A program made the position numbers and the translations under genes. Positions 4,129 to 8,145 of a stretch of DNA of 8,145 nt are shown in pieces. Each line of letters opens with the position of its first letter. Position 1 is the first letter of the stretch. This DNA is from Candidatus Desantisiibacteriota bacterium (GTDB taxonomy: Bacteria; JACRDZ01): assembly GCA_016209155.1 (NCBI GenBank), contig JACQWU010000078.1, positions 1 through 8,145 on the forward strand. The letters run 5' to 3'. Under the pieces are notes generated by a model, which was given only the letters and a program-made list of their open reading frames with translations, was not told the DNA's origin and did not search any database.

Positions 4129-4134
4129 AAAATA

Positions 4135-4414
4135 TTACAGTACTTTCTTTAAATATTGCCCCGTATATGAATTTGGATTATTAACTATTTCTTCCGGAGT
4201 AGTTAACCTATCAATCAGATAGAAACACAAAAAAAAACTATTTTTTGGCACACTTCACCTGTTATTTATTCTTTGTTTTTTAATTTTAATATTCCAGATC
4301 ACGCATATAATTATCAATAAAGATATAAAAACGATTACACTTAAAAAATCAAGGGCTTTCTTCTACGGCCATATTGAGAACCTCTGATATATTCCTGCAC
4401 ATATATCGTCTTAT
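4135..4414 (-). pseudogene. Decayed second copy of uvrA (two surviving fragments)
   Basis: This fills most of the 356-base gap after purF. Fragment 1 (4135-4200) reads on the minus strand as the last 21 residues of Uvr[10 protein letters not shown] to QYLKKVL, followed by TAA. The protein sequence is identical to residues 917-937 of the intact uvrA in this window, and every base difference is synonymous. Fragment 2 (4340-4414) matches codons for about residues 775-798, including NISEVLNM and VEE. It has one inserted base (a T in the run at 4357-4359) that brings a TGA in frame, and one base missing from the A-run near 4342-4348. Between the fragments, 139 bases replace the 354 bases found in the intact gene and show no clear match to it. 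The remnant's stop lies six bases from the purF stop, so this copy was once convergent with purF. It cannot make a working protein. Confidence 0.85.
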
Positions 4415-4484: not shown

Positions 4485-4805
4485 GTGGGGATTAAAGAAT
4501 TTACAAAAGAATTAAGTGAAGATGGTGATGACAGACTAAGGGTGAAAATAAATATTGGAAAAGGTGTCGTTACGGATATAGTTATCCAATATGAGTCAAA
4601 AATAAAGGATAAATGGTATCCAATTGTTAGATATGATTGTTCCCATGGTTTTTTTCATCGTGATATATTATTAAATACAAAAGGCGAAAAAGTTAAACAT
4701 CCGATTCTCATCTCAAATCTCATGGACGCATTAACGTATGCGGAACAGGATATAAAAGATCGTTGGGAATGGTATAAAGAAAAATTTAGAAAAGGACTGA
4801 AATAA
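4485..4805 (+). CDS. Small conserved-looking protein, possible toxin of a toxin-antitoxin-type pair
   Basis: This encodes 106 residues with no signal peptide or membrane segment, so it is probably cytoplasmic. The start is GTG, supported by a strong AAAGGGA ribosome site (4473-4479). The middle has a striking run of polar and aromatic residues: Q35-Y36-E37, W44, R49-Y50-D51, H54 and H58-R59-D60, followed by a helical, tryptophan-rich C-terminal part (91-106). From memory it resembles small uncharacterised DUF proteins with a YExxxxxxWYPIVRYD...H...HRD core, which are often encoded next to a second very small gene and have been compared with TumE-like (DUF6516) toxins. I could not confirm this. 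The clustered H, R and D residues would suit a nuclease-like active site, which is inference. It overlaps the next gene by one base (TAATG), so translation is probably coupled. It may equally be a non-toxic accessory protein. Confidence 0.8.
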   Translation: MGIKEFTKELSEDGDDRLRVKINIGKGVVTDIVIQYESKIKDKWYPIVRYDCSHGFFHRDILLNTKGEKVKHPILISNLMDALTYAEQDIKDRWEWYKEKFRKGLK

Positions 4806-5020
4806 TGACAAAAAAAGAAAACATAGAAAGAAATATTGGTATGACTTTTAATTTTATAAAACATTTAGTTGAACATCCGGAAATAATTAATACCTTACCA
4901 GATGGTGCTGAAATAACTTTTATTGATAAAGATATGCCTTTCAAAGCAAAAGAATATCCAAAAAGAAAAAAAATTGCAAGATATAGAATAGAACATATAT
5001 TTGAACCGATTAAAGCATAA
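4805..5020 (+). CDS. Very small protein, possible partner (antitoxin-like) of the preceding gene
   Basis: This encodes 71 residues, rich in lysine and glutamate. Its ATG overlaps the upstream stop codon by one base, and AAAGGA (4791-4796) lies eight bases before it. The N-terminal half looks helical (IERNIGMTFNFIKHLVEHPE, residues 7-26), followed by TLPDGAEITFIDKDMPF, a pattern I associate from memory with DUF5647-like small proteins (HPE...lPdGAEi.Fi). The C-terminal part is basic (KEYPKRKKIARYR). There is no recognised DNA-binding fold, signal peptide or membrane segment. The size, order and coupling suggest it forms a complex with the 106-residue protein, perhaps neutralising it, but the sequence does not prove that. 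It runs convergently toward uvrA and stops 26 bases before the left inverted repeat. Confidence 0.75.
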   Translation: MTKKENIERNIGMTFNFIKHLVEHPEIINTLPDGAEITFIDKDMPFKAKEYPKRKKIARYRIEHIFEPIKA

Positions 5021-5046: not shown

Positions 5047-5092
5047 AATGGCTAATATACTTCAGCCTTAAGCCTAAATACCTAAATAATTA
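5047..5092. repeat. Left copy of the 46-bp inverted repeat bracketing uvrA
   Basis: This stretch is the reverse complement of 7930-7975 with 44 of 46 bases identical; the mismatches pair with 7938 and 7952. It runs from AATGGCTAATATAC through CTTCAGCC to CCTAAATAATTA. It contains short iterations (AGCCT twice, CCTAAATA twice) and overlaps the last codon of uvrA, so the uvrA stop is inside the repeat. Only weak self-pairing (GGCT with AGCC) is visible, so it is at best a poor terminator between the convergent small gene pair and uvrA. Confidence 0.85.
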
Positions 5093-7903
5093 TAACACCT
5101 TCTTCAAATATTGCCCTGTATATGAGTTTGGATTATTAACTATTTCTTCCGGAGTGCCGCATCCGACTATGTATCCGCCCATGTCTCCTCCTTCGGGACC
5201 AAGGTCAATAATATAATCAGCGGTTTTAATCACATCCAGATTATGCTCTATTACTATGATTGTATTGCCTGCATCGGTCAGCTTGTTTAACACTTCCAAA
5301 AGTTTTGATATATCGGCAAAATGTAGACCCGTAGTAGGTTCATCCAGAAGATAAAGAGTCCTTCCCGTGCTTCTTTTCGCAAGTTCGTTTGAGAGCTTCA
5401 CTCTCTGCGCTTCTCCTCCGGAAAGTGTGGTGGCCGACTGTCCGAGCCTAATATATCCAAGCCCGACTTCATTTATGGTATTGAGTTTGGTTCTTATTTT
5501 TGGAATATGCTTAAAAAAATCAAGGGCTTCTTCAACGGTCATGTTTAGAACCTCTGATATATTTTTTCCTTTATATCTTATTTCCAGAGTTTCACGGTTA
5601 TACCTGCTGCTTTTACATACTTCACACGGTACGTATACATCGGGTAAAAAATGCATTTCAATTTTAATTATCCCGTCACCCTGACAGGATTCGCATCGTC
5701 CGCCTTTTACGTTAAAAGAGAATCTGCCTTCTTTATAACCGCGCATTTTTGATTCAGGCACTTGAGCAAACAGATTTCGAATTTCCGTAAAAACTCCCGT
5801 ATAAGTTGCGGGATTAGACCGCGGAGTCCTGCCGATTGGAGACTGATCAACATCAATGACCTTATCAAGAAGCTCTTTCCCGAGAATCTTATCATGCGCG
5901 CCTATCTGCACACGTGAAAAGTAAAGATGATACATAAAAGAATTATATAAAATATCATTTATAAGAGTGCTTTTACCTGAGCCGGAAACGCCTGTAACAC
6001 AGGTAAATAATCCGATAGGAATTTTCACATCAATATTTTTAAGATTATTTTGATGCGCGCCTTTTATCTCCAGAAATTTCCCTTGCGCCTTACGTCTTTT
6101 TGCCGGTGTTTCTATAAATAGTTTTCGTGACAAGTACTGTCCTGTTAATGATTCCTTGCATTTCAGCAAATCAACAGGAGTTCCTGCAAATACAAGATAT
6201 CCTCCTTTTTCACCTGCGCCGGGACCAAGATCGAGGACATAATCTGCTTCCAGAATTGTTTCTTCATCGTGTTCTACCACAAGTACTGTATTTCCTATAT
6301 CTCTTAACTCTCTGATAGTATTAAGAAGTTTTGTGTTATCACGCTGATGCAGTCCAATACTTGGTTCATCAAGTATATACAAAACTCCTACCAGCTTCGA
6401 ACCTATCTGAGTCGCAAGCCTTATACGCTGTGATTCTCCTCCTGAAAGACTGCCCGCGCTGCGATCCAGAGTTATATAATTTAAACCAACATTATTAAGA
6501 AATCCGAGCCTGTTTTTAATCTCTTTTGTAATCTGCTTTGCGATTATTTGTTCTTTTTCTGACAGTTTCAGATTTATAAAAAACTGCATTAATTCCTTAA
6601 TCGACATTCTGGTGACTTCAATAATATTTTTCCCCGCGATAGTAACTGAAAGCGCTTCGGGTTTTAATCTATTCCCTTTACATGCGGGACAAAGACATAC
6701 TCCCATGTAGTTATCAAATTCATCCCTTATAGCCTGCGACTCGGTTTCTTTATATCGCCGTTCCATATTACCTATAACGCCTTCAAATTTAGTATAATGT
6801 TCATGGCTAATATCTTCTTTTTCAAAAACAAATTTTATTTTTTCCGCCCCCGCACCGTGAAGCAGAACATTCTGAATTTTTTCAGAAAGATCTATCCATG
6901 GAGTATTCAGGCTGAATTTATAATGATAGGCAACAGCTTTAAGCATTTGATTAAAATAATATGCAGTGCCTCTGCTCCAGGGCTTTATTGCACCCTGATT
7001 TAAGGATAAATTTTTATCCGGAACAATTCTGTCAACATCAAAATACATTTTGTCTCCAAGACCGCTGCATTCAGTACATGCGCCAAACGGGCTATTAAAA
7101 GAGAACATCCGGGGGGATATCTCTCCGAGACTTATTCCGCATACAGCACAGGCATATTTCTCGCTGAAAAGAATTTCTTTGCTTTCATGTATAATAATTA
7201 CTATTCCCTCCCCCATGATCAATGCTTTCTCAACAGATTCGGAAATACGGCTCCTGTTTTCAGCTTTTACCATTAGTCTGTCAATAACTACTTCAAGTGT
7301 ATGTTTTTTAGTTTTTTCCATCTTGATTTCATCTTCTTCAAGATCATATACTTTGCCGTCAATTCTTACTCGCAAATAGCCCTGTTTATGTATCTCTTCA
7401 AGTATCTTGCGGTATTCCCCCTTACGTCCTGTTATAAGAGGTGCCAGGATTTGAATGCGCGAATTTTCCGGCATTTCTAAAACTTTATCTACAATCTCCT
7501 GTGAACTCTGCTGAGATATCTCACGTCCGCATTTATAACAATGTGGTTTTCCAATACGCGCAAAAAGAAGACGTAAATAATCGTAAATTTCTGTAACAGT
7601 ACCGACTGTAGAACGCGGATTTTTACTGGTGCTTTTTTGTTCAATGGAAATAGCTGGTGAAAGTCCGCTTATAAATTCAACTTCCGGTTTTTCCATCTGC
7701 CCGAGAAACTGCCGGGCATAAGCAGAAAGTGACTCCACATATCTGCGCTGTCCTTCTGCGTAAATAGTATCAAAAGCAAGCGATGATTTTCCAGATCCGC
7801 TCAGCCCCGTAATAACCACAAGTTTATTACGCGGAATAGTAACATCTATGTGTTTTAAATTATGCTGGCTTGCGCCTTTTATAATTATATTTTCTTCTGA
7901 CAA
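5090..7903 (-). CDS. uvrA: Excinuclease ABC subunit UvrA
   Basis: UvrA is the damage-sensing ABC ATPase of nucleotide excision repair; as a dimer it scans DNA with UvrB and loads UvrB at lesions. The 937 residues match the family (about 940). The first ATPase half has Walker [10 protein letters not shown] (33-41), signature LSGGE (486-490) and Walker [11 protein letters not shown] (D512, E513). The second has Walker [10 protein letters not shown] (638-646), LSGGEAQR near 827 and Walker [11 protein letters not shown] near 852-861. Zinc sites are C252/C255/C276/C279 and C737/C740/C760/C763. The last block reads [11 protein letters not shown] where most homologs have KGKRYN, a minor variation. 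The start is TTG at 7901-7903 with AGGAG (complement of 7911-7915) seven bases upstream, and it gives the usual MSEE-IIIKGA beginning. No LexA-type SOS box is visible. The gene is bracketed by a 46-bp inverted repeat, and a broken second copy lies at 4135-4414. Confidence 0.97.
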
Positions 7904-7910
7904 AATATGT

Positions 7911-7915
7911 CTCCT
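7911..7915 (-). promoter_or_regulatory. Ribosome binding site fixing the TTG start of uvrA
   Basis: On the minus strand this reads AGGAG, a strong Shine-Dalgarno core, with seven bases before the TTG at 7903-7901. There is no in-frame ATG nearby that would keep the conserved N-terminal [11 protein letters not shown] segment, so the rare TTG is the best start. Confidence 0.75.
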
Positions 7916-7929
7916 GTTTTACTTTAATG

Positions 7930-7975
7930 TAATTATTCAGGTATTTAGGCTGAAGGCTGAAGTATATTAGCCATT
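7930..7975. repeat. Right copy of the 46-bp inverted repeat bracketing uvrA
   Basis: This is the partner of 5047-5092 in opposite orientation (44/46). It lies 26 bases upstream of the uvrA start, in the leader or promoter zone of uvrA. It contains two tandem GGCTGAA heptamers (7948-7954 and 7955-7961). On the minus strand it reads CTAATATACTT, holding a -10-like TATACT (complement of 7961-7966), so it could supply part of the uvrA promoter. No convincing -35 is seen at the expected spacing. Confidence 0.85.
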
Positions 7976-8013
7976 ACATAATGCTAAAATTTTTACGTTA
8001 CCACATAGGTTTT

Positions 8014-8050
8014 ACCTAAAAGCCTTACACCTTCAGTCTATTCACCTAAA
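8014..8050. repeat. Degenerate third copy of the GGCTGAA/TTCAGCC repeat
   Basis: This segment, ACCTAAAAGCCTTACACC followed by TTCAGTCTATTCACCTAAA, resembles the left copy (TTCAGCCTTAAGCCTAAATACCTAAA) with several changes. It lies in the same orientation as the left copy and opposite to the right copy, so 7938-8050 could fold into a long imperfect hairpin. It sits just past the end of the putative gene at 8052-8145. It may be an independent member of a dispersed family, or the far end of one roughly 120-base element. The match is by eye and inexact. Confidence 0.45.
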
Positions 8051-8051
8051 T

Positions 8052-8145
8052 TTAAATCACAAATACATTTTTTGGCATAAATGCATTTTTTATTAATTTT
8101 ATTCTTTTTTTTTCATCTGCTTCAAAATCGCGTATTGCCACAATA
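8052..8145 (-). CDS. Possible 3' end of an unidentified gene (truncated by window edge)
   Basis: The minus strand is open for 30 codons from the window edge to a TAA at 8054-8052. The peptide is lysine- and acid-rich (IVAIRDFEADEKKRIKLIKN followed by AFMPKNVFVI), like an ordinary soluble protein tail. Nothing in it identifies a family. It would be codirectional with uvrA and about 150 bases upstream of it, with the repeats between. Being so short and AT-rich, it could be a chance open stretch. Confidence 0.35.
   Translation of the reverse strand, partial: IVAIRDFEADEKKRIKLIKNAFMPKNVFVI

Follow-up and report, generated by a model that had tools for sequence, protein, structure and literature searches.

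Past mobility of the intervening sequences that carry S23 genes has been proposed since the early 1990s. In Coxiella burnetii, the intervening sequence (IVS) of the 23S rRNA, which holds an S23/IVP open reading frame, has a length of 428 nt; mobility of IVSs has been hypothesised, and their origin was still unclear as of 2016 (PMC4990558). We found no paper in the open-access literature that links four-helix-bundle (IVP) genes to intergenic transposable elements. Here, we propose that two inverted repeats flanking a bacterial uvrA gene stem from two independent insertions of a small transposable element of IVP ancestry, each repeat being an arm of one of these relics; we assign a probability of roughly 0.85 to this reading.

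The stretch of DNA analysed (the window) is 8145 nt long and lies at the start of a 14,713-nt scaffold, where it is followed by an N gap at 8146-8151. The source assembly amounts to 3.08 Mb, with a completeness of 79% and a contamination of 2.28%. A repeat search of the window detected a 46-nt inverted pair (5047-5092 and 7930-7975) that is 96% complementary (44/46), which is far beyond chance expectation in 8 kb. The left copy spans the uvrA stop codon (5090-5092), and the right copy is separated from the start codon by 26 bases. An earlier note on this DNA had described the pair in exactly this placement, together with a dead uvrA near the intact gene and the lack of a transposase. We could confirm all three observations: the dead gene is represented by two blocks that match the uvrA 3' end at 89%, and no transposase gene is present within the 8145-nt window. 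The same note suggested that uvrA may be a cassette delimited by the 46-bp repeats that was acquired or passively moved and took the place of the dead uvrA. The features of the locus are the following:

4129..4412, - strand: decayed uvrA 3' fragment, convergent with purF (blocks 4129-4200 and ~4340-4394; 89% to the window uvrA)
4485-4805, + strand: DUF7718 gene (Pfam E=3e-32)
4805-5020, + strand: DUF5647 gene (Pfam E=7e-7)
5047..5093, + strand: lone A-type arm of a truncated palindromic element (arm profile match 5052-5085, +; tip ..AATAATTA)
5090..7903, - strand: uvrA, excinuclease ABC subunit A, intact, 937 aa (TTG start; NCBIfam UvrA equivalogs)
7929..8060, - strand: complete palindromic (MITE-like) element (A arm 7930-7975, loop, B arm 8016-8049; hairpin fold)

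The tandem DUF7718 and DUF5647 genes, with the dead uvrA fragment on one side and the lone arm on the other, resemble a small module of two genes. At 490-511, the window contains a different short palindrome, GAGACGCAATGCcTTGCGTCTC. A similar copy is present farther down the scaffold (L155), and the two apparently represent another dispersed hairpin family.

The earlier note had suggested a search for further copies of the 46-mer, and the repeat is indeed dispersed. Its core, CTTCAGCCTTCAGCCTAAATACCT, was found 53 times in the 3.08-Mb assembly when up to 3 mismatches were allowed, compared to 0 hits for a reversed control pattern. Using an arm profile, we detected 111 arms, mostly as head-to-head -/+ pairs, in 61 clusters; these counts cover the stretches fetched around repeat copies (398 kb). 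The element is an imperfect palindrome of about 100-130 nt. When complete, it carries two distinguishable arms, B (..CCTAAAAGCCTTCCACCTTCAGTCTATTCACCTGAATA) and A (..CTAATATCCTTCAGCCTTCAGCCTAAATACCTGAATA), which are separated by a loop of 2 to 113 nt, while 19 of the 61 clusters are lone arms. Short, non-coding, ending in inverted repeats (the A and B arms) and present in many copies (61 clusters), the family has the structure of miniature inverted-repeat transposable elements (MITEs).

The two uvrA-flanking copies belong to separate members of this family. On the right, the A arm (profile match 7936-7970, minus) is accompanied by its own B arm (8016-8049, plus), and the element, with tips GTAATT.. 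and ..AAATCAC, folds as one hairpin (-38.1 kcal/mol, z -3.96). On the left, the tip ..AATAATTA of the lone A arm overlaps and contains the uvrA stop codon (TTA on the + strand), and the arm profile search found no B arm beside it. The 46-mers are therefore facing arms of different elements, in the order +...-, which is opposite to the -...+ order within one element, and do not form the outer ends of a single unit. Any two palindromic elements that flank a gene present inverted repeats facing each other, and this calls for caution in genome reading, as palindromic mobile elements on both sides of any gene mimic a cassette with inverted ends. The two arms of the window are the most similar of 3240 arm pairs (44/46), which would favor the cassette. 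However, the right arm also agrees with an unlinked copy on contig C68 at 43/46 positions, only one base less, so that no special link between the window arms is needed.

The tight framing of uvrA had also been read as a sign of a cassette, but the repeat is placed likewise wherever we found it. The arm core lies at a median distance of 4 nt from stop codons (43 genes; 31 at <=7 nt) and 20.5 nt from start codons (40 genes); the respective distances for uvrA are 4 and 32 nt. Genes were called by a simple longest-ORF rule for this comparison, and the stretches were chosen for holding the repeat, so the distances describe the repeat and not a genome average. Nor is uvrA alone in having a copy on either side, as the same arrangement was seen for at least three further genes (contigs C20, C52 and C342). 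The element tip GTAAC/GTTAC contains TAA, and at uvrA this TAA serves as the stop codon. We conclude that the tight frame of uvrA follows the placement rule of the family and does not mark cassette ends.

The history of uvrA was investigated as well. In a tree of 59 UvrA proteins, the window uvrA and a second intact uvrA from the same assembly are sisters (SH-aLRT 100), and both fall into a weakly supported group including same-phylum sequences. The gene looks native, with no sign of a foreign donor. The second uvrA (contig C290, L119; 6701-9511, minus) shares 83% aa and 77% nt identity with the window copy and could be a true paralogue or derive from a contig of a related strain. It is located 20 nt upstream of a TldD/PmbA-like gene, and no arms were found near it in the 33 kb that were read out of 38 kb. 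The dead uvrA consists of a 72-nt block (4129-4200) and a 55-nt block (~4340-4394), each matching the window uvrA at 89% and separated from the other by an internal deletion. The fragment is closer to the window uvrA than to the C290 copy; at 89%, compared to 77% nt for the second uvrA, it fits a local uvrA duplicate that has since decayed rather than an old gene that was replaced by an imported one. The neighbourhoods of uvrA differ in the two same-phylum genomes examined, and conserved position therefore says nothing on movement. A dead partial copy was also observed for purF (C214:360-560), a fragment with two in-frame stops and 54% aa identity over 67 residues.

Even with a dead uvrA fragment nearby and a second uvrA elsewhere, a passive cassette is highly improbable in our view: its presumed ends are wrongly oriented and belong to two elements, its framing is that of the whole family, and the sister of the window uvrA is a paralogue in the same assembly that lacks arms in the 33 kb. 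Of the recombination at a dispersed repeat that the earlier note envisaged, the dispersal holds and recombination is possible in principle, whereas the idea of a mobile or replaced uvrA framed by it is not supported.

We further searched for the element in other genomes. Among 290 genomes, nearly all from other phyla, the core was present only in the window's genome and in G228, a member of another phylum, which has 149 core sites and a GC content of 59% in the fetched stretches. Within the phylum of G228 (95 genomes), the core is confined to one genus, where 12 of 15 genomes carry it; it was found in none of three genomes from the window's own phylum (0/3). Across about 380 other genomes overall, the repeat is thus carried only by this one genus. 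We rejected plasmids and phages as vehicles, as the intact element matched nothing there. Two viral contigs from IMG/VR (L296 and L297) contain intergenic hairpins with very similar arms, CTTCAGCCTTCAGTCTAACTACCT, in which no tips were seen.

In this genus, intact elements were identified in G319 (L262) and G310 (L263). Here, an open frame of about 119 aa lies between the same arms. It was assigned to PF05635 23S_rRNA_IVP (E=5e-33) and to the TIGR02436 four helix bundle protein family (E=3e-33), so that both loci show the layout of an IVS, with a PF05635/TIGR02436 protein between terminal inverted repeats. Shorter copies retain the first and last codons of the IVP gene and lack the middle, with graded deletions. 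The fused N/C-terminal IVP fragment alone was below Pfam detection, and the match was obtained with the intact ORF. In the window's genome, the element loops on contigs C38 and C1 match the 3' end of the IVP gene (0/300 shuffles each), and these two are the only tested loops that retain clear IVP sequence. For the loop of the element at uvrA, the comparison with the IVP gene was not significant at the 3' end and borderline at the 5' end. No intact element with these arms was found in the window's 79%-complete assembly. The intact IVP genes present in the window's genome and in G228 were rejected as parents, as they have other flanking repeats.

The intact element in G319 and G310 is inserted between a putative tRNA gene and a putative hotdog-type gene, and the same site is empty in G228, G318, G314 and G317. 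The occupied site in G319 reads GCGCAGGA - GTAG..element..GTTAC - GCGCAGGA, whereas the empty site in G318 contains GCGCAGGA once, which reveals an 8-bp target duplication at orthologous sites. Among 41 elements of this genus, 12 have direct repeats of >=7/8 at their tips, compared to 0.8 expected from re-paired flanks. In the window's genome, we detected one exact 8-mer (C304) and a mean of 5.44 of 8 matching positions versus 5.22 by chance, a small excess as expected of older copies. No target duplication was seen at the two uvrA-flanking copies.

These data bear on two further explanations. The repeats are intergenic imperfect palindromes of two related inverted arms, and six Y1_Tnp genes exist in the genome, as would suit REP/REPIN sequences spread by a RAYT (Y1) transposase. 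However, arms adjoin none of the six Y1_Tnp genes (0/6), and on this ground a RAYT/REPIN origin was rejected. The intact relatives of the repeats moreover hold an IVP gene and make 8-bp duplications, while to our knowledge REPINs make none; we give this origin hardly any credence. Alternatively, the hairpins could be non-mobile, conserved regulatory structures (terminators or mRNA stabilisers) selected at gene ends. The strong folds (mean z -4.2 over 41 copies) and the constant placement at stop codons would agree with this. Not expected from such structures, however, are the identity across unlinked sites, the absence from same-phylum genomes, the remnants of the IVP gene, and the target duplications with empty sites in the other genus, which leaves a purely regulatory nature very unlikely. 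A later regulatory role of the hairpins is compatible with a mobile origin.

The intact arm-IVP-arm elements, the graded internal deletions and the IVP remnants on C38 and C1 identify the uvrA-flanking copies as MITE-like relics of a mobile IVP element that arose by internal deletion. Under our preferred reading of two independent relic insertions, the complete ancestor is the form that is still intact in the other genus. It is about 440 nt long and consists of tip GTAACTAYTCAGG, arm B, an IVP (S23) gene, arm A and tip CCTGARTAGTTAC, with an 8-bp target duplication on either side. What is left of it in the window's genome are internally deleted, MITE-like hairpins of about 100-130 nt, some of them reduced to one arm, which are packed between genes. 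We infer that transposition took place within this genome, and that at uvrA it would have left a complete hairpin just upstream and a lone arm at the stop codon, with no gene brought to the locus by the element. The tight frame would then reflect where insertions are tolerated, namely immediately after stop codons and, ahead of start codons, at a distance that spares the ribosome site. Within the genomes searched, both arms and IVP remnants are restricted to two phyla that differ strongly in base composition, which suggests that the element was transferred laterally between them.

In the most likely scenario, a transposase encoded elsewhere acted in trans on the GTAA tips of the IVP element and of its deletion derivatives, making 8-bp duplications. 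Both features, the tips and the duplications, are typical of IS66. It is conceivable that an IS66-type transposase mobilised the IVP element as a mobile insertion cassette, and its derivatives as MITEs sharing IS66 tips, although we consider this doubtful. The window's genome contains two IS66 fragments, and an exact copy of the tip GTAACTATTCAG (reverse strand, L294:1298-1309) is located about 210 nt upstream of one of them, an IS66-type transposase gene; this 12-mer occurs only 3 times in 398 kb, each at an element. However, no second putative IS end was seen, and this one may instead belong to a truncated element. Additionally, eight element-carrying genomes of the other genus have no IS66 genes. 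IS66 was therefore rejected as a general mover, and the lead was kept for the window's genome only.

IVP genes with other flanking repeats may extend this picture. In four genomes, inverted short-period repeats of unrelated sequence directly flank 7 of 16 IVP genes but none of the uvrA control loci (0/27), which hints at a wider class of IVP elements. As a tentative idea, IVP genes might define a broad class of small transposable elements with their own heptad-like inverted arms, an 8-bp duplication and an IVP protein in the mobility machinery. The 23S rRNA IVSs would then represent a specialised branch of this class, and MITE-like swarms like the one at uvrA another. PF05635 genes bracketed by unrelated inverted short-period repeats were observed at L217 (C29), L215, L218, L220, L224, L227 and L231; at L217, the four-helix-bundle gene directly follows a probable cas2 gene.

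Compared to the known systems, the intact element resembles the 23S rRNA IVSs in its size of about 430-440 nt, in terminal inverted repeats that form a long stem, in having a PF05635 protein as its sole gene, and in its patchy distribution. It differs from them in being located between protein or tRNA genes, outside the 23S rRNA gene, and in having 8-bp duplications, dozens of dispersed deletion derivatives and distinct A and B arms. The origin of IVSs becomes directly testable with an IVP element that stands on its own, has both occupied and empty sites, shows an 8-bp duplication and has left deletion derivatives in two phyla. It resembles REP, BIME and REPIN sequences in its intergenic location near stop codons and in the inverted pairing of two related types of arm, but it has no adjoining Y1/RAYT gene, is derived from a protein-coding element and makes 8-bp duplications. 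GTAA tips and the 8-bp duplication are in common with insertion sequences of the IS66 family, which are absent from the genomes with intact copies. Like MITEs, the derivatives are short, multicopy sequences without a transposase that have inverted terminal repeats, originate by internal deletion and, in the other genus, show a target duplication; unlike in MITEs, the parent carries an IVP gene and no recognised transposase. Mobile insertion cassettes (MICs), in turn, likewise have a passenger gene between terminal repeats and no transposase. The copies in the window are thus MITE-like by structure, and the intact form functions in the manner of a MIC.
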